Part shown: positions 1 through 32,819 of the stretch, in pieces
Layout: every line of letters starts with the position of its first letter
Position numbering within the stretch: the stretch's first letter is position 1
IMG/VR virus record: IMGVR_UViG_3300032157_000026
Coordinates: 1-41,461 of that record
DNA length: 41,461 nt
Strand: one strand, 5' to 3'
Origin: a virus
Program-made: the position numbers and the translations under genes
Notes under the pieces: model-generated
Database searches by the model: none
Seen by the model: only the letters and a program-made list of their open reading frames with translations
What the model was told of the DNA's origin: nothing

Positions 1-127
1 CGAGGTCTTGGTATACCGTATTCCGTCCCAGGGACCGAGGCACGCGTGTGGTGAGCTACATCTTGGCACGTCTTTTGCTACGCGGGCGCGCGCATCGCGC
101 ATAAATAGCGGCGATTTGTCTGGTTAT
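1..127. repeat. Left copy of exact 127-bp terminal direct repeat
   Basis: Bases 1-127 are identical to the last 127 bases of the window (41335-41461). Both copies lie in non-coding DNA. An exact overlap of 127 is what a de Bruijn assembler run at k=127 leaves at the ends of a circular contig, so the unit genome is probably 41334 bp. A real short terminal repeat cannot be excluded from sequence alone. Confidence 0.95.
40..60 (-). repeat. Inverted copy of junction repeat
   Basis: The minus strand reads TGTAGCTCACCACACGCGTGC, which matches 19 of 21 bases of the two direct copies at 41261-41283 and 41289-41311. The same site appears again at 41374-41394 because of the terminal overlap. On the closed circle the three copies sit within about 140 bp, two direct and one inverted, as protein-binding iterons or a packaging/origin signal would. 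Confidence 0.7.
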
Positions 128-239
128 AACAGAGGCGCTCGTTATAGCTAAATAGTTGTTTACAGAAATGCGCGGTAGTACCATAATGTACCTACACCAG
201 CAGCAACCGGCTCTGGTGACCACTACAAGGAAATACGCC

Positions 240-776
240 ATGTCCCGCTCTAACCGCCACAACACCCCAGCTATGACCGAAGACCAACTGGCCGAGGTTC
301 TGGCCCTGCAAGAAGCCCATACCGAGGCGCTGGCAATGAACGAGGTTTGGGTAGCTACCCCACCAGCCGAAATCGAGGTAGAAGTTACCGAGCCGGCCAT
401 TTGGACCCCCGCGCCAAACTACGCCAAGACCGTGGAAAACGTGGAAAAGCGTGTGGCAAGCGCAAGGGCGAAAGAAGGCACCCATACCGGCAAGATTTTG
501 ACCGGCATTGGCAAGCAAGACGCTCGGGCCAATACCGCACGAGCAGCGGCTCTGGCGGCGATGCAGGAAAACCTTGGTCAGCCGTACCACGTTGTCCTGG
601 AAGCCGTTACACTGGCCGAAAAGGCATGGCACAAATCCAACGGGCGCACCCCTGGGAACTTGGCACCAGCTGGATGGTTCAAGCACTTCAACGCGGCCTG
701 GACCGACGTGGTAGCCACCACCCAACCCGAGCCAGAAACCGCGCCTGAAACCACCGGCGAAGCCGCTGAAGCCTAA
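240..776 (+). CDS. Hypothetical protein, acidic C-terminus
   Basis: 178 residues. The ATG at 240 follows an AAGGAAA ribosome site; a TTG at 156 would add 28 residues but lacks a good site. The N-terminal half is Glu/Ala rich, the middle (about 85-155) is an Ala-rich helical stretch ending in an aromatic segment with AGWFKHFNAAW, and the tail is a low-complexity Glu/Pro/Thr run. I recognise no domain. It is the first gene after the contig junction and is followed by a hairpin and a small membrane protein gene. Placed between the primase-helicase and the terminase genes, it could be a late accessory or lysis-associated gene, but nothing in it looks like an endolysin. Confidence 0.75.
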   Translation: MSRSNRHNTPAMTEDQLAEVLALQEAHTEALAMNEVWVATPPAEIEVEVTEPAIWTPAPNYAKTVENVEKRVASARAKEGTHTGKILTGIGKQDARANTARAAALAAMQENLGQPYHVVLEAVTLAEKAWHKSNGRTPGNLAPAGWFKHFNAAWTDVVATTQPEPETAPETTGEAAEA

Positions 777-783
777 TCCCCCC

Positions 784-801
784 GGCCCCCTCCGGGGGGC
801 C
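784..801 (+). terminator. GC-rich hairpin, terminator-like
   Basis: GGCCCCC and GGGGGCC pair around a TCCG loop directly after the stop codon at 776. No T-run follows, so this may be a weak terminator or an mRNA-stabilising stem. Confidence 0.4.
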
Positions 802-820
802 AACCCCCTAGGAGCTACGT

Positions 821-1003
821 ATGAACATCACAGATTGGAAGGAATGGCTGGAAATCATTGCGTATGCCCTGATTGGCCTGATCGGGAAGGCCTTCCTGAG
901 CATCGTCAGCTGGGTCTTCAGCACCGAGGGGTTCATAGTCATCCTGCTGGTGCTGATCCTCAGCGAGCTTGGAGGCATCTCTAAGCAGCTGTCCCGCCGC
1001 TAG
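821..1003 (+). CDS. Small membrane protein, holin candidate
   Basis: 60 residues, with a TAGGAG ribosome site seven bases before the ATG. Two hydrophobic stretches, about residues 13-31 and 36-51, are separated by a short polar turn, and the tail ends in KQLSRR. Two membrane segments, small size and a basic C-terminus fit a class II holin, but they also fit many small phage membrane proteins. It is flanked by hairpins on both sides and lies ahead of the late operon. No endolysin gene is adjacent, so the lysis role is only inferred. Confidence 0.7.
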   Translation: MNITDWKEWLEIIAYALIGLIGKAFLSIVSWVFSTEGFIVILLVLILSELGGISKQLSRR

Positions 1004-1021
1004 CCTTCCCCCCCTGTCTCC

Positions 1022-1042
1022 AAGCCCCGCATGTCGGGGCTT
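1022..1042 (+). terminator. Rho-independent-like terminator
   Basis: AAGCCCCG and CGGGGCTT form a perfect 8-bp stem around CATGT, followed by TTGT. It closes the two-gene unit ending at 1003 and separates it from the terminase operon. Confidence 0.7.
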
Positions 1043-1045
1043 TGT

Positions 1046-1399
1046 CATGCCTGACCCAAACCCATCAGCACCATCCAACAGAGCTCACCCTCCATCCGTC
1101 TGTGGGACGGAGAGCCGAGCGCTAGGTCACTCAGCCTGACGGACGTGGAGCCTGGAGCTCAGCTCTCCTCACCGAGCTCTCAGGTCCCCCTCCGGAGATC
1201 GCTCTTCGCTTTAGGTCCCTCCCCTCTCCGTTAAACAGGGTGCCATCACATTTTTACACCTCCCCTCCCAGGTACAAAATGTGAAATTCTAAGACCCAGT
1301 ACCGAGTTCTGAGGGGAAGCGTTAACGACCCAGTACCAAGATATCCCTTTACAATCGGTCATAACTGTGCTAGGCTTCTTCTAACTCAGGAGGTGCCCT
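1046..1399. other. Non-coding region upstream of terminase genes with repeated motifs
   Basis: No convincing ORF in about 350 bases. It contains two direct copies of GACCCAGTACC (1293-1303 and 1327-1337, 34 bp apart), two copies of a CCGAGnnCTsAGG element (1172-1184 and 1302-1314), and an 8-bp inverted repeat CACATTTT/AAAATGTG (1247-1254 and 1276-1283). A third CCGAG element lies on the other side of the contig junction (41174-41186, inverted). Regions just upstream of the small terminase gene often carry packaging (pac/cos) or late-control sites; that role here is inference. Confidence 0.6.
1348..1376 (+). promoter_or_regulatory. Sigma70-like promoter for terminase/late operon
   Basis: TTTACA, 17-base spacer, TAGGCT, with TGC immediately before the -10 box (extended -10). 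It lies 24 bases upstream of the small terminase start. The GTGCTA context resembles the promoter before the capsid gene (6755-6783). Confidence 0.5.
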
Positions 1400-3110: not shown

Positions 3111-5095
3111 TGAGCGTCTGGGATAAACGTATCGCCAAGGCCGAGAAGTTCTTCCAACGAGCTCGGGAACATGGGCGCAAGGTCTACACTCGGTACAAGG
3201 ACGAGCGTGAAGATGAGGTTATTGGCCTTCAGAGGGTCAACATCTTCTACGCCAACGTCAACACGATTAAGGAAAGCCTGTTTAACTCCCTGCCCAAGCC
3301 CGACGTGTCGAGGCTTCATAAAGGTGACTACGAAGATGACACAGCCCGCGTCGCAGCTCTTATTTTGCAGAGGGCTCTCACGTACGAAGTCCATTGTGCC
3401 AAGTCTTTTGCCGGTGCGGTCAAGTACGCGATTCTGGATCGCCTTGTCCCGGGCATGGGCCAGACATGGATACGGTTCGAGCAGCCTGAGGAGATTTTTG
3501 TTGATGTGCTTTATTGGGAGGATTTCCTCTACGGTCCAGCGCGATCTTGGGAGACAGTTCCCTGGGTCGCGCGGAGGCACGAGTTTACTGCAGAGGAGTT
3601 CATTGAGCGTTACGGCAAGGCAGCCCTCTCCGACGCCTCCAAAATTAAGGATGATAACAACATTACCCCTAAAGAGATTTCGGAGAATAAATACTGCGTC
3701 TACGAAATTTGGGAAAAGAAAACACGGAAGGTCTTCCACGTAGTACTCGGTGCGGCCAAGCCGCTGAAGACTCTGGACGACCCCTACAAGCTGCCGGACT
3801 TCTGGCCATGCCCTCGGCCCCTGATGGCCAACCTTACGACCTCGGCGTTTCTTCCGGTGACTGACTATCACCTCGCCCAGGACCAGTATAACGAGCTCGA
3901 CGTGCTTTACGCTAGGATGGCGCTGATTTCCAAGGCTGTGAAGGTGGCGGGGCTGTACGACGCTGCCAGCGCTGAGATCGGCCGCATGCTGGAGGGCCAG
4001 GAAAACAAGCTCGTTCCAGTTGATAACTGGGCCATGTTTGCTGAGAGAGGCGGGGCCAAAGGCATGATCGACTGGTATCCAGTTGAGCAGGTCGTCACTG
4101 TCTTCCAGGCGCTGGCTGGGCAGTACGACATGGTGAAACAGACTCTGTACGAAGTCACTGGCATGTCGGACATCATGCGCGGGGCGTCCAATCAGTACGA
4201 AACAGCGGCGGCGCAGGAAATTAAGTCACAATTTGCCTCCGTGCGCATGAACGGCTACCAGCGCGACGTGTCCGAGTTCGTTCGAGACATTATGCGCATC
4301 ATTGCGAGCATGATGAGCGGGCTCTACAGCGATGAAAAGTTCCAGGCCATCTGTGGCAGCTTCAACGAAGCCGATCAGAAGCTTCTTGGTCCGGCTATGC
4401 AGGTCCTCCGCAGCCCACAAATGTCTCAGTACAAGGTGGACGTAGAGCCCGACAGCCTTACTCAGTCCGATTGGGCGCTCGAAAAGGGCCAGCGGATGGA
4501 ATTGACCGGGTATATCAGCCAATTCCTGTCCAGTGCCGTCCCAGCGGTGGAAAACGCCCCAGAACTCGGCCCATTGCTCTTCGCAATGATCAAATTCAGC
4601 GTGGCGGGCTTCAAGGGGGCCGCAGAAATCGAGGGAATCATCGACCAGCAGCTCGCAGCGCTCGTCGCCAAGGCTGCGAACCCAGAACCACCGAAGCCAA
4701 CGCCAGAAGAGCAGAAAATGCAGCTGGAACAGCAGAAAATGCAGGCTTCTATGCAGCTGGAACAGCAAAAGGCTCAAACTCAGTCCCAGTTGGAGATGCA
4801 GAAGGCGCAAATGGAGGCGGGCCTCCGGTCCCAGGAGTCCGCACAGCGTATGGAGCTCGAAAACCAGCAAGCTCTGGCCGATATGGCCGTGAAGCGCGAA
4901 GAGCTGAACAACCAGCGTGAAATGTTCATGATGGAAATGGCTATGAAGCGCCAAGAGCTCGAGTTTAAGCAGCAAGAAATGGGCCTGAAGCTGGAGCACC
5001 AGTTCGTGTCGGGCCAAATGAAAACCCAACAGATGAAGGAGCAAGCAGATGCCAAACCCAAGGGACCAAATGGGTCCAAGCCCGGAGATAAGTGA
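3110..5095 (+). CDS. Portal (head-to-tail connector) protein
   Basis: 661 residues, larger than a minimal portal. The ATG at 3110 overlaps the terminase stop and has GGAGAA upstream. The core (about 1-500) carries YWEDFLYGPARSWETVPW near 138-155, typical of podoviral portals, and DYHLAQDQYNELD near 252, then a portal-type helical region. The last 130 or so residues are a Gln/Met/Glu/Lys coiled coil (about 535-650) with repeated LEQQKMQ-like heptads, ending in a Gly/Pro/Lys tail. Portals form a dodecameric ring through which DNA is pumped; the long coiled coil probably forms the barrel or contacts internal virion proteins. Confidence 0.9.
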   Translation: MSVWDKRIAKAEKFFQRAREHGRKVYTRYKDEREDEVIGLQRVNIFYANVNTIKESLFNSLPKPDVSRLHKGDYEDDTARVAALILQRALTYEVHCAKSFAGAVKYAILDRLVPGMGQTWIRFEQPEEIFVDVLYWEDFLYGPARSWETVPWVARRHEFTAEEFIERYGKAALSDASKIKDDNNITPKEISENKYCVYEIWEKKTRKVFHVVLGAAKPLKTLDDPYKLPDFWPCPRPLMANLTTSAFLPVTDYHLAQDQYNELDVLYARMALISKAVKVAGLYDAASAEIGRMLEGQENKLVPVDNWAMFAERGGAKGMIDWYPVEQVVTVFQALAGQYDMVKQTLYEVTGMSDIMRGASNQYETAAAQEIKSQFASVRMNGYQRDVSEFVRDIMRIIASMMSGLYSDEKFQAICGSFNEADQKLLGPAMQVLRSPQMSQYKVDVEPDSLTQSDWALEKGQRMELTGYISQFLSSAVPAVENAPELGPLLFAMIKFSVAGFKGAAEIEGIIDQQLAALVAKAANPEPPKPTPEEQKMQLEQQKMQASMQLEQQKAQTQSQLEMQKAQMEAGLRSQESAQRMELENQQALADMAVKREELNNQREMFMMEMAMKRQELEFKQQEMGLKLEHQFVSGQMKTQQMKEQADAKPKGPNGSKPGDK

Positions 5096-5099
5096 TAAG

Positions 5100-5228
5100 A
5101 TGAAGGAGTTTCTGGCCTCCATACCAGTTGTAACTCCTGCAGAAATCCTGCGTCGTCAAACTGAGAAGTTCTACGAGGATGTTCGAAATGGCAACCCAGA
5201 CCCCAGCAAAACCAGCGACCAAAAGTGA
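5100..5228 (+). CDS. Small hypothetical protein
   Basis: 42 residues. It begins MKEFLASIPVVTPAEILRR and is polar throughout the rest. It starts four bases after the portal stop and has protein-like composition, with GGAG about 12 bases upstream. Function unknown; small genes between portal and scaffold are common in podoviruses. Confidence 0.55.
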   Translation: MKEFLASIPVVTPAEILRRQTEKFYEDVRNGNPDPSKTSDQK

Positions 5229-5298
5229 AGAGCCTCCAGCAAAGCCCGTCCCACCGCCCGTCTACGAACCAGATTCGGCGTCAGGGCGCAAGGAGTAA
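5188..5298 (+). CDS. Small proline/lysine-rich protein
   Basis: 36 residues, overlapping the previous small ORF by 41 bases in another frame. It opens MATQTPAKPATKSEEPPAKP and is disordered. GAGG lies about 10 bases before the ATG, and the AAGGAG ribosome site of the next gene lies inside its last codons, suggesting coupled translation. Either this ORF or the preceding one might be spurious. Confidence 0.45.
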   Translation: MATQTPAKPATKSEEPPAKPVPPPVYEPDSASGRKE

Positions 5299-5301
5299 AT
5301 C

Positions 5302-5712
5302 ATGCCGATCTACGAGGCTTTGTGCGACGGATGCGATAGCATTGTCACGTATCATCGCACCGTAGCTGACCGCAATGAGACTCCTGTATGCCCCCGCTGC
5401 GGGGGTGAGACTCACAAGGCCATCTTCACTGCCCCCAAGAGCTATATTACGGGCAAGTTTGAGGCCTTCAAGTCCGTGGTGGATGGATCTATTATTGACT
5501 CGCAGCGGGCCATGCGTGAGCATAATAAAAGAAACGACGTAGTCTGCTTAGCTGATGGGTACGACGAGGAAACGATTCTAGCTGGCAACCTCGGCAAGCC
5601 CCTCCCTAAAAGCGTGGCAGAAATCAGGAAGGACATAGCTGATGATATTCAGCAGTCCATTCACGAGGTGCAGAACGGCTACAAGCCGATCATAGGTGAA
5701 TCAGATGAGTGA
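5302..5712 (+). CDS. FmdB-like zinc ribbon protein
   Basis: 136 residues, AAGGAG site. The N-terminus MPIYEALCDGCDS with C8-C11 and C30-C33 is the FmdB/CxxC_CxxC_SSSS-type zinc ribbon, found in bacterial putative regulators and in many phage head operons. The remaining 100 residues are mostly helical and unrecognised. Its stop overlaps the scaffold start, so it belongs to the head assembly operon. Its role is unknown; protein binding during head assembly is a guess from position. Confidence 0.8.
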   Translation: MPIYEALCDGCDSIVTYHRTVADRNETPVCPRCGGETHKAIFTAPKSYITGKFEAFKSVVDGSIIDSQRAMREHNKRNDVVCLADGYDEETILAGNLGKPLPKSVAEIRKDIADDIQQSIHEVQNGYKPIIGESDE

Positions 5713-6754
5713 CGAAAAAGAAACCAGCCTCGAAGACGACATCAGAGCAGCGATGGGCGAGGTTGAGACAGGTGCCGATAAAGAGGAAGAAGTCTCCACG
5801 GAGCGTGAACGCGATGACAAAGGTAAGTTCGTTGCTAAGGAGGGAGAAACTGAAGTCGAGGCGGCTGCCCGCCTTGAGCCGGGCGACAAGAAGGACGAGA
5901 CTCCTCCGAAAGGCGAGGAAACCCCGCCTGCCGAAGGCGAACAACACCTTCTGAACGAGGACAAAGCTCCTCGCGGCTGGGCACCAGCTATCAGGGAGAA
6001 GTGGGGCACCATCCCTGAGGATATCCGTAAGGAGATCATCCGCCGTGAAGAAGCGTCTGCCGTCGGTGTACGTCAGCTACAGGAGAACTACGCTCCTATG
6101 GAGCAGTTTGTCGGTAGCATCGCCCCGTTCATTCAAGAGGCTCGGCAGAATGGCGTGGCCCCTGACCAATACATCGGAAGCGTCCTTGCTTCTGAGCGTA
6201 TACTGCGCAAGGCTGACCTCCCAACAAAGTTTCAGGAAATACTGCGCATTGCAGATCAATACGGTGTACCACTTAGGGACATCATTAACGCGTCTGTAGG
6301 CTCAGAAGTGCTGACTAAGGCTCCACAGACGCAGGGTCAGCAGTACGTCCCTCCCCAAGTGGCGCAGGAGCTTGCTGAGGCTCGCCAATGGCGTGAGCAG
6401 TTCGAAGATCGGCAGGTTAAGAACGAGCTGGCGGCATTCTCGCAGGGCAAGGAGTTCTACGAGGACGTGCGTGCGCAGATGGCGGTGCTGGTGGAGTCAG
6501 GCTCCGTGAAGTCGCTTGATGAGGCCTACGACGCCGCCTGCTGGGCCACTCCCGCGGTCCGTACCGTGCTCCTCCAACGCCAAGGCAAGGAGCAAGAGAA
6601 GACTGATCTTCAGAAGCGGCAGGAGGCCGCTGCCGGTGCTAGCGTCAAGCCTAAAGGAGAGGTTGAGGTTAAGGTCGATGACGATGAGGATGATGATGAC
6701 CTCGGGGCAACGGTGCGCAGAGAGTTTAACCGTGCAAATTCTGGAAGAGTATAG
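5705..6754 (+). CDS. Scaffolding protein (putative)
   Basis: 349 residues from ATG 5705, which has AGGTGA eight bases upstream; a GTG at 5696 is possible. The first 90 residues are highly charged (Asp/Glu/Lys), the middle is helical with repeated ER/QA segments, and the C-terminus has a run of acidic residues near 330-340 followed by a basic tail. Charged, helical, low-complexity proteins immediately before the major capsid gene are usually internal scaffolds that are lost from the mature head. Identified by composition and position only. Confidence 0.75.
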   Translation: MSDEKETSLEDDIRAAMGEVETGADKEEEVSTERERDDKGKFVAKEGETEVEAAARLEPGDKKDETPPKGEETPPAEGEQHLLNEDKAPRGWAPAIREKWGTIPEDIRKEIIRREEASAVGVRQLQENYAPMEQFVGSIAPFIQEARQNGVAPDQYIGSVLASERILRKADLPTKFQEILRIADQYGVPLRDIINASVGSEVLTKAPQTQGQQYVPPQVAQELAEARQWREQFEDRQVKNELAAFSQGKEFYEDVRAQMAVLVESGSVKSLDEAYDAACWATPAVRTVLLQRQGKEQEKTDLQKRQEAAAGASVKPKGEVEVKVDDDEDDDDLGATVRREFNRANSGRV

Positions 6755-9881: not shown

Positions 9882-11480
9882 ATGCCTTTCGGTCGTAGCA
9901 CAGCTCAGCGCCGGGTGTCACAAATCAGGTCCCTTATGGCCCCTCTTGGTGGCATAAACGACATTGATCCTCTGGCCAATATGGGGGAGGAGTTCTGCAT
10001 CCAGTTGCTCAACTGGGTCCCAGGCAACGCTGCTCTGCAAGCGCGACAGGGCTATCGCGAGTGGGTGACGGGCTTGACCCTGCCAGTTAAGACTCTCATG
10101 CAGTATAACAAGATGGATGGGGAGTTTAGCCTCTTCGCCGCTACTGACGTGGGTATATACGATGTCACCGTCTCAGGGAGTGTCCCTATTCTTTCTAAAG
10201 CAGTCACTCAGGGTTACTTCAAATACATCAACTTTGGCAATGTCGCTAATCAGTATCTGGTGGCTGTCAACGGCACTACTGATCCATCACTTCTGTACGA
10301 CGGCACAAGCTGGATTGAGATGACACAGAGCCCGACCCCCACCGCCCCCGGTGAGATCAAGGGCGTGGACCCTAACAGTTTTTCGCATGTGATGTCATTC
10401 CAGCGGCGCCTGTGGTTCGTCCAGGATAGTTCTATGACGGCATGGTATCTTCCTATAGATGCCACGGCTGGAGAGGCCAAACCTTTCTATTTGACCAGCG
10501 TGTTCAAGCGCGGCGGCAAGCTTCTGTACATCGTCGACTGGACAGTGGACGCTGGTGATGGCTTGGATAACAAGCTCATCTTTGTTTCTAGCACGGGCGA
10601 GATCGCCATCTACGCTGGCACGGACCCCGACAATGCTTCTACCTGGAGCTTGCAGGCCGTCTTCTTCATGGGCCGTCCCATGGGGGAACGCTCGTTCACG
10701 GAGTTCGGTGGCGACGTGTTTATAAACACGTCTTACGGTATTGTCCCCCTGTCTAAGGCTCTTGTCGGTGAGATAGCTGAGTCCCCAAACCAGCAGGCCA
10801 TCTCTAAGCGCATCAACAGGACTCTTAACAGGATTATTCTGTCTAAGAAGTATCAGCTGAACTGGGAGCTCTACAACTTCCCAATGCTTCAGGCCATTAT
10901 CCTCATTATACCGCCTAACGGGCAGGAGCCGGCGCTCCAGTACGTCATGAACTCCCTGACCGGGGCGTGGACACTGCTGGATATTCCTCTGACCACTGGG
11001 ATAGTGGCACGCGATACCTTCTACTTCGGTACTGTAGATGGTCGTGTCTGCCAGTACGGTAACGGGAACTATCTGGATAACGTGAAGCTTGACGGCACTG
11101 GCGGTGACGCCGTTATATGCTCGCTGTTCAGCGCCTACAGCTACATGGGCGACCCCAGCAGCCTCAAGCACTGGAAGCTCATCCGCCCAATTTTCCAATC
11201 AGATCAGCCCCCAAGCTATCTGGTACACCTGAACACTGATTTTGATATCGCTGCTCTGGCAGGCAACCCAGCGCCTCCGTCAGATGAGCAAACCAATCCC
11301 CTGTGGGATATTGCAATCTGGGATCAGTCATTTTGGTCTTCCTCCTACACCGTCTTTCGGCCGTGGGTGGGGGTGTCTGCTCTCGGTTTCTGTTGTGCCC
11401 TACTAATGAAGGCTGCTACGAACGACGAGACCACACTGGTAGCCATAGAATATGTCTACGAGACGGGTGGTGCCATATGA
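9882..11480 (+). CDS. Large tail hub / packaged-DNA stabilisation protein (putative)
   Basis: 532 residues, starting two bases after the adaptor stop. Beta-rich with many evenly spaced Gly/Trp/Tyr segments such as FQRRLWFVQDSSMTAWYLP (about 170-188), like the propeller-type tail proteins of P22 gp10 and podoviral tail tubular B groups. SLMAPLGGINDIDPLANM near the start is typical of proteins that assemble directly on the adaptor. It likely plugs and extends the neck. Its stop overlaps the next start (ATGA). Confidence 0.7.
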   Translation: MPFGRSTAQRRVSQIRSLMAPLGGINDIDPLANMGEEFCIQLLNWVPGNAALQARQGYREWVTGLTLPVKTLMQYNKMDGEFSLFAATDVGIYDVTVSGSVPILSKAVTQGYFKYINFGNVANQYLVAVNGTTDPSLLYDGTSWIEMTQSPTPTAPGEIKGVDPNSFSHVMSFQRRLWFVQDSSMTAWYLPIDATAGEAKPFYLTSVFKRGGKLLYIVDWTVDAGDGLDNKLIFVSSTGEIAIYAGTDPDNASTWSLQAVFFMGRPMGERSFTEFGGDVFINTSYGIVPLSKALVGEIAESPNQQAISKRINRTLNRIILSKKYQLNWELYNFPMLQAIILIIPPNGQEPALQYVMNSLTGAWTLLDIPLTTGIVARDTFYFGTVDGRVCQYGNGNYLDNVKLDGTGGDAVICSLFSAYSYMGDPSSLKHWKLIRPIFQSDQPPSYLVHLNTDFDIAALAGNPAPPSDEQTNPLWDIAIWDQSFWSSSYTVFRPWVGVSALGFCCALLMKAATNDETTLVAIEYVYETGGAI

Positions 11481-11923
11481 AGACGATAGATTGCTCAACC
11501 TTGTTTTTGCCTCTGATCTGTGGTATACTTGGGTTTACACCGACCAACCTCGCGCAGTGTATCGTGTGCCTGGAGGACGGCAAGGCCATAGCCGGGGTCA
11601 TCTACGACGGCTACAATGAAGTGAGCATCAGCGCCCATATTTGGGTTGATGACCAGAAGCTTCCATCCAAAGAGTGGTATGTCGCCATCTTTGACTATCC
11701 GTTCAACCGGCTGGGCATTAAGAAGCTCATTGGCCAAGTGAATTCACACAACGAAGAGGCGTCCCGTCTGGACCAACACTTCGGGTTTATTGAAGAAGCA
11801 AGGGTAAAGGACTACTCAGAGAAGGGAGATCTCATTATCTACACCATGACGAAAGAGCAGTGTCGTATACTGAACTCTCCGGCGTGGTCAAGGGTCGTTA
11901 ACTTAGTGGCGAGGGTCGCGTAA
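11477..11923 (+). CDS. GNAT-like acetyltransferase domain protein
   Basis: 148 residues from the ATG that overlaps the preceding stop. The chain has a GNAT order: an early strand with VCLEDGKAIAGVIYDGYN, a central strand YVAIFDYPFNRLGIKKLIGQV and LDQHFGFIEEARVKDY near the end, which is the usual GNAT final strand/helix. The acetyl-CoA loop (Q/RxxGxG/A) is not clearly preserved. GNAT-like proteins sit in tail/internal-protein regions of several podoviruses; whether they acetylate anything there is unknown. Confidence 0.65.
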   Translation: MKTIDCSTLFLPLICGILGFTPTNLAQCIVCLEDGKAIAGVIYDGYNEVSISAHIWVDDQKLPSKEWYVAIFDYPFNRLGIKKLIGQVNSHNEEASRLDQHFGFIEEARVKDYSEKGDLIIYTMTKEQCRILNSPAWSRVVNLVARVA

Positions 11924-13080
11924 TGGGCGGTGGGAAGAAACAAAAGGCTCCGGCCGCGCCAGACTATGCGGCCCTGCAACAGTCGGATGCTCTAGCCAAT
12001 CGGCAGACCGCTAGCGAAATTACCCGCTGGAACCGGCCTACGCAGATTGATGCCTACGGTAACTCCATAAACTGGTCACAGGACGCAGCTGGAAACTGGA
12101 CTCAGAGTCAGACGCTTAACCCGTACTTCTCTGATGCTCAGAACACTGCTCTGTGGAACTCCATGCAGGCCAACCGAGCCGTGTCCGAGCAGGGGGCGTT
12201 CAGCGGAGGTCCAGGCTATGAGATGGCGAACAACCGCTACTGGAACGCCATCACCAATGGCCTCCAGGGCAACCAAGGCGGCGAGTTAGCTGACTTTGCA
12301 CCTGACGCTGGCGGCATTGGTGACTTCACCAATACGGCCGGTACGATCGGTAACTTCGACCGCACACAGGGTGACCAAGTCGCCAAGGACATGTTCGAGT
12401 CGGCCATGTCACGTCTTCGCCCCCAACAGGAGCAGGACACTGCCGCCATCGATGTTAAGTTGCGCCAGCAGGGTCTGCAACCGGGCACGGAGGCCTACGA
12501 CCGCGCCATGAAGAACATGACGACCTCTCAGGGGGACGTCAACGCCAAGCTGGGCTTGGACTCTACGGCGGCTGGCTATCAGGCTGCGCAGAACATCTAC
12601 AACACCAACCTCGGCGGGCAGGGTCAGCGTTATCAGCAATTGCAGGGCGACTACGCTGCCAACCTCGCAGGTCAGGGTCAGCGCTTCGGCCAGCAACAGG
12701 CCGCGTATGAGACTAATCAGGGTGCTCAGCAACAGCGCTATCAACAAGGTAAAGAGTTGTTCGACGCCAACCAAGAGGAACGGTGGAAGGAATACGACCG
12801 TTCTATGACGTCACAGCAACAGCAGTACAATCAGGCTCTGCAGAACTATACCCTCCCAATGGAGAGGGCTCAGGCGGCGGCTCAGCTATATGCTCAGTCC
12901 CCTCAGCCCAATTTCCCAGGGTTCAGCGGTGCGACTGGGTACAACCCCGCCGACATGACTGGTGCGGCTAACGCGAGCTATCAGGCCAAGATGGGTAACG
13001 CGAACGCTGGCGCCAACAAGAAGAACTCCATGCTCGGTGCAGGGACGTCTCTCGGTTCCGCCTACTTGGGGAGTAAGTAA
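11923..13080 (+). CDS. Internal virion-like protein, Gln-rich
   Basis: 385 residues. It opens with a basic, disordered MGGGKKQKAPAAPDYAALQQ and continues with WSQDAAGNWTQSQTLNP and long Gln/Ala/Tyr helices containing tandem GQGQRYQQLQ/GQGQRFGQQQ/GAQQQRYQQGK units (about 228-290). Internal ejection proteins of short-tailed phages have this position and composition. The start overlaps the previous stop by one base. No enzymatic motif seen. Confidence 0.65.
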   Translation: MGGGKKQKAPAAPDYAALQQSDALANRQTASEITRWNRPTQIDAYGNSINWSQDAAGNWTQSQTLNPYFSDAQNTALWNSMQANRAVSEQGAFSGGPGYEMANNRYWNAITNGLQGNQGGELADFAPDAGGIGDFTNTAGTIGNFDRTQGDQVAKDMFESAMSRLRPQQEQDTAAIDVKLRQQGLQPGTEAYDRAMKNMTTSQGDVNAKLGLDSTAAGYQAAQNIYNTNLGGQGQRYQQLQGDYAANLAGQGQRFGQQQAAYETNQGAQQQRYQQGKELFDANQEERWKEYDRSMTSQQQQYNQALQNYTLPMERAQAAAQLYAQSPQPNFPGFSGATGYNPADMTGAANASYQAKMGNANAGANKKNSMLGAGTSLGSAYLGSK

Positions 13081-28602: not shown

Positions 28603-29349
28603 TTAGAACTTCGCTGGTTTGGATGCTGTTTCTGCTGCTCTTTCAGTTGGAGGATCATAGACCTTCTGTGCGATCTCCAGAGCCGCAGGAATTCGGGCTA
28701 TGAGTCCGCCCAGCATGCTCCGATCAACTACGCCAATATCGGTAAAGGTCAGCTTGTACTGGCTCTTCTGGTCAGGCACGCTGCCTACCCGAGTGATCAA
28801 AGCCAGTGGTGGGGATTTGTACAGAGCGCCGCACTTCTGAACATACATCTGCCAGTTGTTCACTGAAGTGACAGGAGGTTTAAGGATCGCAATTTCAGCC
28901 GTGGCAATGTCTTCTGGCCGAGTGGAGGCGGGGATCACCGCCAAGCTGCGAGTGTTCTTGCAAGCCTTGCCCCGGCCACCGTCGGGGTCACTTTTCCACT
29001 GGTTGGCCCAGCACTCGGCACAGGTGGAGCACTGGGGCTTGCTGCTCGCAGGGTGCGGGGCCATATCCGGGCCTCCATCCTCAGAGTACGCAAAGCAGAC
29101 CGGGCTGGTCAGGTTATTGGGGTCAAACTTGCCCTCGTACAGCGTATTCGCGTGGACACTTGCGACTACAATAACATCCAGTTTGTTGTCTGGGCATGGA
29201 TTCCCATTGTAGGTCAGTACCCCCGCACGGGTGCCGATTGTTAGCCCGCTGGGTCGCTCTATCTCGCCGGCCCTCTTGGCCAACCGAGCGAGCTCCTCAT
29301 CGTAGTTTACTATCTCGGATCTCTTAGTGTCTTTGCTCTCAGTAGTCAT
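28603..29349 (-). CDS. Cys4 protein next to polymerase, possible ssDNA-binding protein
   Basis: 248 residues. The middle has PQCSTCAECWANQW (C107, C110, C113) and C130 in GKACKNTR, a likely zinc site; the surroundings alternate beta strands (KLDVIVVASVHANTLYEG) and are compatible with an OB-like fold. It ends in a Lys/Pro-rich tail rather than an SSB acidic tip. The position directly upstream of polA in the operon suggests a DNA-binding replication accessory. I recognise no named family with certainty. Confidence 0.6.
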   Translation of the reverse strand: MTTESKDTKRSEIVNYDEELARLAKRAGEIERPSGLTIGTRAGVLTYNGNPCPDNKLDVIVVASVHANTLYEGKFDPNNLTSPVCFAYSEDGGPDMAPHPASSKPQCSTCAECWANQWKSDPDGGRGKACKNTRSLAVIPASTRPEDIATAEIAILKPPVTSVNNWQMYVQKCGALYKSPPLALITRVGSVPDQKSQYKLTFTDIGVVDRSMLGGLIARIPAALEIAQKVYDPPTERAAETASKPAKF

Positions 29350-31128: not shown

Positions 31129-31545
31129 TCAGGCTTTCCTGTCAAATAGGTCGTACACGGTACGCACCTTGACACCGGGCACGGGCTCCCCAGCATCTTC
31201 GCGAGCAAAGATGGCCGGGTCGCTAATGCGAAACTGTAGCATGTCAAGGGCGCGGTTCTGTATCAAGTAATCAACGAAGGCCTCGCGGTCTTCAACCTCA
31301 TGGACTTCCCTGTCACTTAGACCAGTGATACGCTGGTCAATTACCATCCCCTCAAAGAGCTGTTCCCGGAAGACATCAATCAACCAGGACTTCATGCCAA
31401 TTTCTTGCTCTTTGAGATCAGCCGCTATCTTGTCCGCCTTTAGGCGTTCAGCCCGCTTGTCGCGCCATGCCTGGATGACTTTCTCAGCCATGTAACGGTC
31501 GGCGTCTATGGGGGCAACATTAGCGATGGTTTTATCAAAATCCAT
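31129..31545 (-). CDS. Hypothetical helical protein
   Basis: 138 residues from ATG 31545 (AGAGGTGG six bases upstream). Lys/Glu/Arg-rich coiled helix at about 15-60 (WRDKRAERLKADKIAADLK), then a compact segment ending VKVRTVYDLFDRKA. I do not recognise it. Overlaps the upstream gene by 11 bases. Confidence 0.7.
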   Translation of the reverse strand: MDFDKTIANVAPIDADRYMAEKVIQAWRDKRAERLKADKIAADLKEQEIGMKSWLIDVFREQLFEGMVIDQRITGLSDREVHEVEDREAFVDYLIQNRALDMLQFRISDPAIFAREDAGEPVPGVKVRTVYDLFDRKA

Positions 31546-31843
31546 CACTGTCCACCTCTTCAATAGTTTTGGTGAACACCAAATTACCGCCGATATAGCT
31601 CCGTTCCCATAACAGAGCCTGGAGTGTCCTACCCAGTATTGTCAGTTCGTGCAATGTAGAAGGTTTGCCTGGAAACAGCAGCCCCCATGCATCACTAAGG
31701 CTAAGAACTACGCACATCTGCCCTTTGTACTTGCGCAGGAATGGGCGAAGGTTCGCTGCCTTCATTAGCGGCATGACTCGCTCAGTAAAGGACTTGTCCT
31801 CCAGGGGGGAAATTTTGAATCGGAGACGTTCTACGGTAAACAT
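31535..31843 (-). CDS. Hypothetical protein
   Basis: 102 residues from ATG 31843 (CAGGAGT upstream). Basic N-terminus TVERLRFKISPLEDKSF, then a hydrophobic stretch QMCVVLSLSDAWGLLFPG. No domain recognised. Mid-early leftward gene. Confidence 0.7.
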   Translation of the reverse strand: MFTVERLRFKISPLEDKSFTERVMPLMKAANLRPFLRKYKGQMCVVLSLSDAWGLLFPGKPSTLHELTILGRTLQALLWERSYIGGNLVFTKTIEEVDSDGF

Positions 31844-32276: not shown

Positions 32277-32657
32277 TCAAAATGGAATGTCATTATCGAT
32301 TTTTGGCACCACGGGGGCTGGGATGTACTCCCCCTCAACCGGCGCCGCTTTCGGTGCATCCAGCAACAGCAATGATTTGCGAACTTCGGCTATACGCATC
32401 ATAGCCTCGCTGTAAACCCGCATGGCCTCGTTTTCCTGAACCGTCAGGGTTTCCAAGGCCCGACTGTAAAGATCAACGCCCTCAGGTATAACGGCGCAGA
32501 GCTCTACTTCCGTCACCAATATGGCACGATTGTCGTAATGGCAGGTGCCATCACGGAGCTCGTACCTAAAGGGGAACTCGCCCAGCTTCGGCGCGTACTT
32601 GGGCAGAGCCCAGATACTTCCCTCAGCCTTAACTACTTCCTGCTTGGTTTTAATCAC
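32277..32657 (-). CDS. Early protein with SSB-type C-terminal tip
   Basis: 126 residues from GTG 32657 with a perfect GGAGGT seven bases upstream. The last eight residues, KIDNDIPF, closely match the acidic tip of bacterial SSB (DFDDDIPF in E. coli) that recruits RecQ, ExoI, PriA, RecO and other partners. A Pro/Ala linker (APKAAPVEGEYIPAPVVP) precedes it, as in SSB. The N-terminal 95 residues include a helical stretch and do not look like a standard OB fold. First gene after the leftward early promoter. It may be a divergent phage SSB or a decoy for SSB partners. Confidence 0.75.
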   Translation of the reverse strand: MIKTKQEVVKAEGSIWALPKYAPKLGEFPFRYELRDGTCHYDNRAILVTEVELCAVIPEGVDLYSRALETLTVQENEAMRVYSEAMMRIAEVRKSLLLLDAPKAAPVEGEYIPAPVVPKIDNDIPF

Positions 32658-32695
32658 AACTATTACCTCCTTGGCGGCTGCTATACCGCACCTAT

Positions 32696-32724
32696 ATAGT
32701 AGCCCAGCGGTGTTACTGGTGCAA
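32696..32724 (-). promoter_or_regulatory. Leftward early promoter
   Basis: Minus strand TTGCAC (32724-32719), 17-base spacer, TACTAT (32701-32696). Followed by ATAGG and, 25-30 bases on, the strong ribosome site of the 32277-32657 gene. The -35/spacer region contains GTGTTACTGGTG on the plus strand, repeated at 20402-20413. Confidence 0.65.
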
Positions 32725-32744
32725 CCATTAAAGGCCTCCAGCGC

Positions 32745-32773
32745 TTGCCCAGTTTGGTTATAAGGCTTATACT
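32745..32773 (+). promoter_or_regulatory. Rightward early promoter
   Basis: TTGCCC, 17-base spacer, TATACT. The spacer has GGTTATAA and the -10 is followed by CTGGTACTACCAG. The promoter at 36798-36826 has the same three elements at the same spacing, so the two are probably co-regulated. Confidence 0.7.
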
Positions 32774-32784
32774 GGTACTACCAG
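32772..32784. promoter_or_regulatory. 13-bp dyad operator candidate
   Basis: CTGGTA-C-TACCAG, a perfect dyad overlapping the -10/+1 of the rightward early promoter. Related elements: 20380-20407, 32710-32721, 36823-36834, 37697-37704. Confidence 0.55.
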
Positions 32785-32819
32785 CGCCACCCCGGCGCTG
32801 CTTATATAGGTGCAAGGTT

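Follow-up and report, generated by a model that had tools for sequence, protein, structure and literature searches.

We analyzed a 41,461-nucleotide stretch of viral DNA (IMG/VR record IMGVR_UViG_3300032157_000026, positions 1 to 41,461), referred to here as the window. Our interest lies in one small leftward gene, whose product we call the window protein; the features discussed are collected in Table 1. Bacteria use the C-terminal tip of SSB as a hub through which more than a dozen enzymes of repair and replication reach single-stranded DNA. Translation of the minus-strand ORF gives a protein that starts with GTG and whose C terminus reads PAPVVPKIDNDIPF / ...DAPKAAPVEGEYIPAPVVPKIDNDIPF up to the stop codon (KIDNDIPF). 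The earlier note had described an SSB-type tip, KIDNDIPF, following a Pro/Ala linker, and both are present in the translation. It had also called this the first leftward gene, which was borne out: beyond it lie the intergenic bases 32658–32819 and, from about 32820, a divergent rightward gene. From this position the protein is probably expressed early.

The GTG start, the AAGGAGG site, and a 67%-identical relative in the phage L002, which has the identical GTG start and ribosome-binding sequence, together mark the ORF as a real gene on sequence evidence. Promoter and terminator scans gave results at the level of shuffles. The inverted CTATATAGGTGC-like motifs of the divergent region lie at 32688–32699 and 32801–32815, the latter being an exact CTTATATAGGTGCAA, and L002 and L015 also have motifs similar to CTATATAGGTGC on either side of the gap. 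The acidic tip of the third leftward gene has counterparts in L002 (EVDDDGF) and L003 (EIDEDGF) and is absent from the homologues in L009 and L011–L014.

Table 1. Features of the window considered in this work
Feature	Position	Strand	Basis or remark
SSB-tip protein CDS	32277..32657	-	126 aa; translation, homologues L002/L003/L010, AAGGAGG before GTG
Ribosome-binding sequence AAGGAGG	32666..32672	-	8 bases before GTG; same element in L002
Folded domain, residues 1-98	32364..32657	-	AlphaFold2
Flexible Pro/Ala linker, residues 101-120	32298..32357	-	Sequence; low pLDDT
SSB-Ct-like tip DNDIPF, residues 121-126	32280..32297	-	Translation; recurrence in relatives
Divergent intergenic region, 162 bases	32658..32819	.	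Weak promoter-like sites; inverted CTATATAGGTGC-like motifs at both ends
Neighboring gene, third of leftward arm, acidic tip EVDSDGF	31535..31843	-	Tip kept in L002, L003
Putative phage SSB, gp32-like fold, C terminus KPAKF, adjoins PolA	28603..29349	-	AlphaFold2, structure comparison
Shared block: PHROG 13900 gene, SSB-like gene, PolA, SNF2 helicase, thymidylate synthase			

Relatives of the window protein and distribution of the tip

Searching the window protein against annotated phages gave no match, a first viral scan with it gave no confirmed relative, and genome scans for prophage copies of the gene found none. Related contigs were reached via the nearby SSB-like gene. Homologues of the window protein were found in L002 (67% identity), L003 (39%–41%), and L010 (37%), the profile of PHROG 2479 led to relatives in L009, L011, L013, and L014, and a profile built from the relatives found in this way led to L012 and L015. 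Matches to PHROG 2479 were obtained for L009 (3e-6), L010 (3e-4), and ORF7 of Erwinia phage Gungnir39 (6.8e-6), and the window protein itself has no match to this profile. A model of L011, L013, and L014 from which the tails had been removed still recovers L012 (E = 2.6e-14) and L015 (E = 1.6e-7); the tip therefore did not select these two members.

PHROG 2479 comprises phage proteins of uncharacterized function that are similar in size to the window protein, which adds the linker and the SSB tip, whereas L009, L014, and Gungnir39 ORF7 are short and tail-less. The Gungnir39 protein, a tip-less member that matches the family profile at 2e-9, sits between RecE/ParB-like genes and RecT. We join the window subgroup and the L011–L015 subgroup through PHROG 2479, gene order, and Gungnir39 as a bridging member, a join that is weak by direct profile comparison (not significant; hhalign E = 0.23).

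The family sample consisted of ten phages (the window, L002, L003, and L009–L015), with L110 as a near-copy of L015. These ten form a single PolA clade (support 100/99) and all carry the family gene, which in nine of them is found upstream of a shared SSB-PolA-SNF2 block; L015 and L110 have it on the opposite arm. Gene order is shared between the window and the clade members that match PHROG 2479 (L015/L110 excepted). The PolA and the SSB-like protein are 34%–37% identical to their counterparts in Stenotrophomonas phage AXL_3, Pseudoxanthomonas phage PW916, and an uncultured siphovirus. This is no more than a hint that the host is a proteobacterium.

The tip is not uniform across the family. 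Three of the ten members have an I-P-F tip (DNDIPF in the window, FDDDIPF in L012 and L015), and L110 also ends in FDDDIPF. Further tips are GDDTPF in L013, DDDVGF in L011, and DADGIPY in L002, the last with a terminal Tyr and not Phe; the longer C-terminal peptides read PVVPKIDNDIPF in the window, DKFDDDIPF in L012, and NTDADGIPY in L002. L003, L009, L010, and L014 have no tip, with L003 ending in TTNEED. Conservation in relatives, proposed by the earlier note as a check, thus gave a mixed answer: a tip is present in six of ten members (three of them I-P-F) and absent from four. Since these four do without it, the tip is accessory and cannot be essential to the family. We rejected the possibility that the tip had moved to another gene in tip-less members: no further tip of this kind occurs in the scanned stretches of L009, L010, and L014, and the sole comparable tip in those of L003 is the EIDEDGF of the neighboring gene. 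Across the scanned stretches of nine phages, no other I-P-F-type tip was found. On the PolA tree, at least three gains or losses of the tip are needed.

Judged by composition, a protein would end in [DE]x[DE][ILV]PF by chance with a probability of about 4e-6. We also formulated, once the tip was known, a strict rule (a PF end preceded by I, L, V, M, T, A, or F, and two acidic residues among the last eight). Four of ten family members obey it, as do four of 17,892 distinct ORF ends outside the family (Fisher p = 3.4e-12). This background was drawn from ORFs in the examined loci that were 40 residues or longer; raising the minimum to 100 residues gives p = 5e-10. The test is not circular, because members were recovered by tail-removed models. 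L015 and L110 differ at 15 synonymous and 5 nonsynonymous codons, none of them in the tip. By these sequence comparisons, the tip is not a product of chance.

Predicted folds of the window protein and of the phage SSB candidate

AlphaFold2 (10-sequence alignment; mean pLDDT 77, pTM 0.42) predicts strands at residues 7–19, 30–35, and 46–57, a helix at 63–98, and a disordered tail, with pLDDT averaging about 50 over residues 101–126. This beta-beta-beta-alpha prediction agrees with the impression, given in the earlier note, that the N-terminal part is no obvious OB fold. PDB structure searches with the model gave nothing significant and no OB match, results that on their own exclude nothing, and its best viral structure matches are uncharacterized phage proteins of 93–100 residues (best E = 4e-3, probability 1.0). 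No SSB family in PHROGs, Pfam, or NCBIfam matches the window protein. A Pfam RPT match over residues 76–99 (E = 0.0025) was set aside as a helix match that fails the Pfam cut-off, ubiquitin-fusion matches from a PDB sequence search were discarded, as no stretch passes alone, and primosomal protein I of Xanthomonas phages matches only at E of about 1. From the strand and helix count of the model, the protein is predicted to be beta-beta-beta-alpha and not OB, and on this prediction it is not a divergent SSB.

The phage has a separate SSB candidate beside PolA (Table 1). Its AlphaFold2 model (pLDDT 86, pTM 0.79; 56-sequence alignment) aligns with the gp32 of RB69 (Z = 6.2 over 151 residues) and of T4 (Z = 6.1 over 154 residues), both values being under the safe level of the tool. 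A phiC31 integrase-RDF fusion heads the structural matches (Z = 7.4 over 142 residues), other OB proteins rank below the gp32s, and Foldseek alone found nothing significant with this model. Among the 56 sequences of its family, C110 and C130 are invariant and C113 and H99 are at least 90% conserved, a His/Cys set that is by its residues of the zinc type. The model is suggestive of a resemblance to gp32-type OB-fold SSBs. Likenesses to T4 and RB69 gp32 are the zinc-type His/Cys set and the placement beside PolA, along with a suggestive one in the predicted fold (Z about 6 over 151–154 residues); there is no sequence match, and the C terminus is basic-aromatic where that of gp32 is acidic. The candidate ends in SKPAKF, with no acidic C-terminal tail, and most of the 77 family members end in a basic residue plus Phe or Tyr. 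Tails of this gp32-like family such as ARKF, GKRF, and SRKY are opposite in charge to SSB and gp32 tails. In another locus (L069), a 98-residue protein encoded directly downstream of a gp32-like SSB gene (10772–11065, plus strand) ends in GEDDIPF.

The earlier note had considered that the window protein might itself be a divergent SSB, and had named fold prediction as a check. Both the predicted fold, which has no OB match, and the separate gp32-like protein at 28603–29349 count against that suggestion; the outcome of the fold prediction speaks against its being just the phage SSB.

Possible roles of the tip

The closest known layout is that of bacterial SSB (PF00436), in which DDDIPF, compared with DNDIPF in the window protein, likewise stands at the free C terminus behind a disordered Pro-rich linker. 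The window protein differs in its predicted beta-beta-beta-alpha fold, which is not OB, and in having no SSB profile match. It is established that SSB-Ct docks on partner proteins and that its function requires the terminal IPF (PMC10143822; PMC10164576).

The phage probably uses the tip to attract or distract host enzymes that are SSB partners. Our leading interpretation, held tentatively and with a probability of roughly 0.4, is that an early beta-beta-beta-alpha protein docks on host partners through its SSB-Ct tip and serves as an adaptor to phage DNA. A small, probably early protein would carry, on a disordered linker, a replica of the C-terminal tip of host SSB, and the tip would enter the SSB-Ct pocket of host proteins (by inference ExoI, RecQ, RecO, PriA, RecG, DinG, DnaG, Pol III chi, and others), so that the window protein would bring at least one host SSB partner to phage DNA. 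We place this role first because the phage's own gp32-like SSB has no such tip. The folded domain would have a function independent of the tip, as it is retained in members that have none, and the tip would be an extra element acquired or lost repeatedly. In most phages with this gp32-like SSB no family member was detected, so such an adaptor would not be generally required.

The main rival uses the same docking to a different end. Here the protein would act as a decoy, titrating host SSB partners (for instance ExoI, RecQ, or RecO) off host SSB as infection begins and so blocking repair or a defense nuclease. The earlier note had raised the idea of a decoy or redirector for host SSB partners, and it fits the sequence and the predicted fold. 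A small protein with a free tip, encoded by the first gene to the left of the divergent intergenic region, would suit this role, and the repeated tip changes on the tree fit an accessory anti-host function. However, host SSB is abundant and would be in competition with a monovalent, micromolar tip, and the position of the tip-less Gungnir39 member among recombination genes points to a core role in DNA metabolism. Given the replication and recombination neighborhood and a phage SSB without a tip, we favor the adaptor and regard the decoy as possible but doubtful.

The tip might otherwise be read by a phage partner (its own helicase, nuclease, or polymerase) and not by the host. The tail of T7 gp2.5 docks on T7 proteins. 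The SSB of phage HK620, which is of the DUF669 type, also has a phage-encoded SSB-like tip, and this tail, NDYPPF as against DNDIPF in the window, recruits the phage recombinase Sak4 to ssDNA (PMC5928155), although the HK620 protein is a true ssDNA-binding protein and the window protein is not predicted to be one. The conserved neighbors of the family gene (gp32-like SSB, PolA, and SNF2-type helicase) would offer candidate partners. We nevertheless consider this quite unlikely, as the FDDDIPF letters are those of a host-type tip and the SSB, PolA, and helicase are conserved also where the family member has no tip.

A fast-evolving acidic tail that merely happens to end in DNDIPF would account for the great variation in tail length and letters, for the four tip-less members, and for the TTNEED of L003, but recurrence of the tip in six of ten members, the strict-rule enrichment, and the constancy of FDDDIPF in L110 while its linker varied make this very improbable. 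To a divergent phage SSB we give scarcely any weight: the tip and linker are in SSB layout, and an NCBIfam SSB model aligns at its end with the last 21 residues of L012 (E = 0.022, in the tail only), but the predicted three strands and long helix, the lack of a PDB OB match and of an SSB family match for the window protein, and the gp32-like candidate encoded elsewhere all speak against it.

SSB-type tips on other phage proteins

Scanning viral contigs for proteins ending in FDDDIPF returned at least 80 loci. Among the matches listed, 36 of 78 proteins match Pfam SSB and four match SSB_1 (counts that may overlap), and more match PHROGs named ssDNA-binding or gp2.5-like. The remaining FDDDIPF proteins among the matches listed include a DUF669 protein, from a family in which a phage SSB has been demonstrated (PMC5928155), as well as two helicases, a Cap12-like TIR-domain protein, and small proteins of no assigned kind. 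No clear member of the window protein's family was found among the matches listed, and we found no phage SSB-tip mimics or decoys in the open-access literature. By sequence, SSB-Ct tips sit on several phage proteins that are not canonical SSBs, to which the window protein adds one more predicted fold.

A broader scheme, which we consider speculative and unlikely, is that SSB function is split in these phages: a gp32-like OB protein without an acidic tip would be complemented in trans by the SSB-Ct tip of the beta-beta-beta-alpha protein, and phages would graft SSB-Ct tags onto many unrelated folds. Were this so, the phage would choose when host SSB partners come to its DNA. A phage protein with the SSB tip but no ssDNA-binding fold would serve naturally to probe or inhibit the SSB hub, and would be comparable in this with the synthetic SSB-Ct mimics being pursued as antibacterials (PMC10143822). 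Helicases, a TIR-domain protein, and small proteins emerge from the survey as candidates whose tips sit on other folds, and this set bears on the question of whether phages redirect the SSB interactome by tip mimics. The two helicases with FDDDIPF ends are encoded at 11283–13016 (minus strand) of L161 and 64–1344 (plus strand) of L187. The Cap12-like TIR-domain protein, a possible defense protein, lies at 4873–5748 (plus strand) of L120 and ends in DFDSFDDDIPF.
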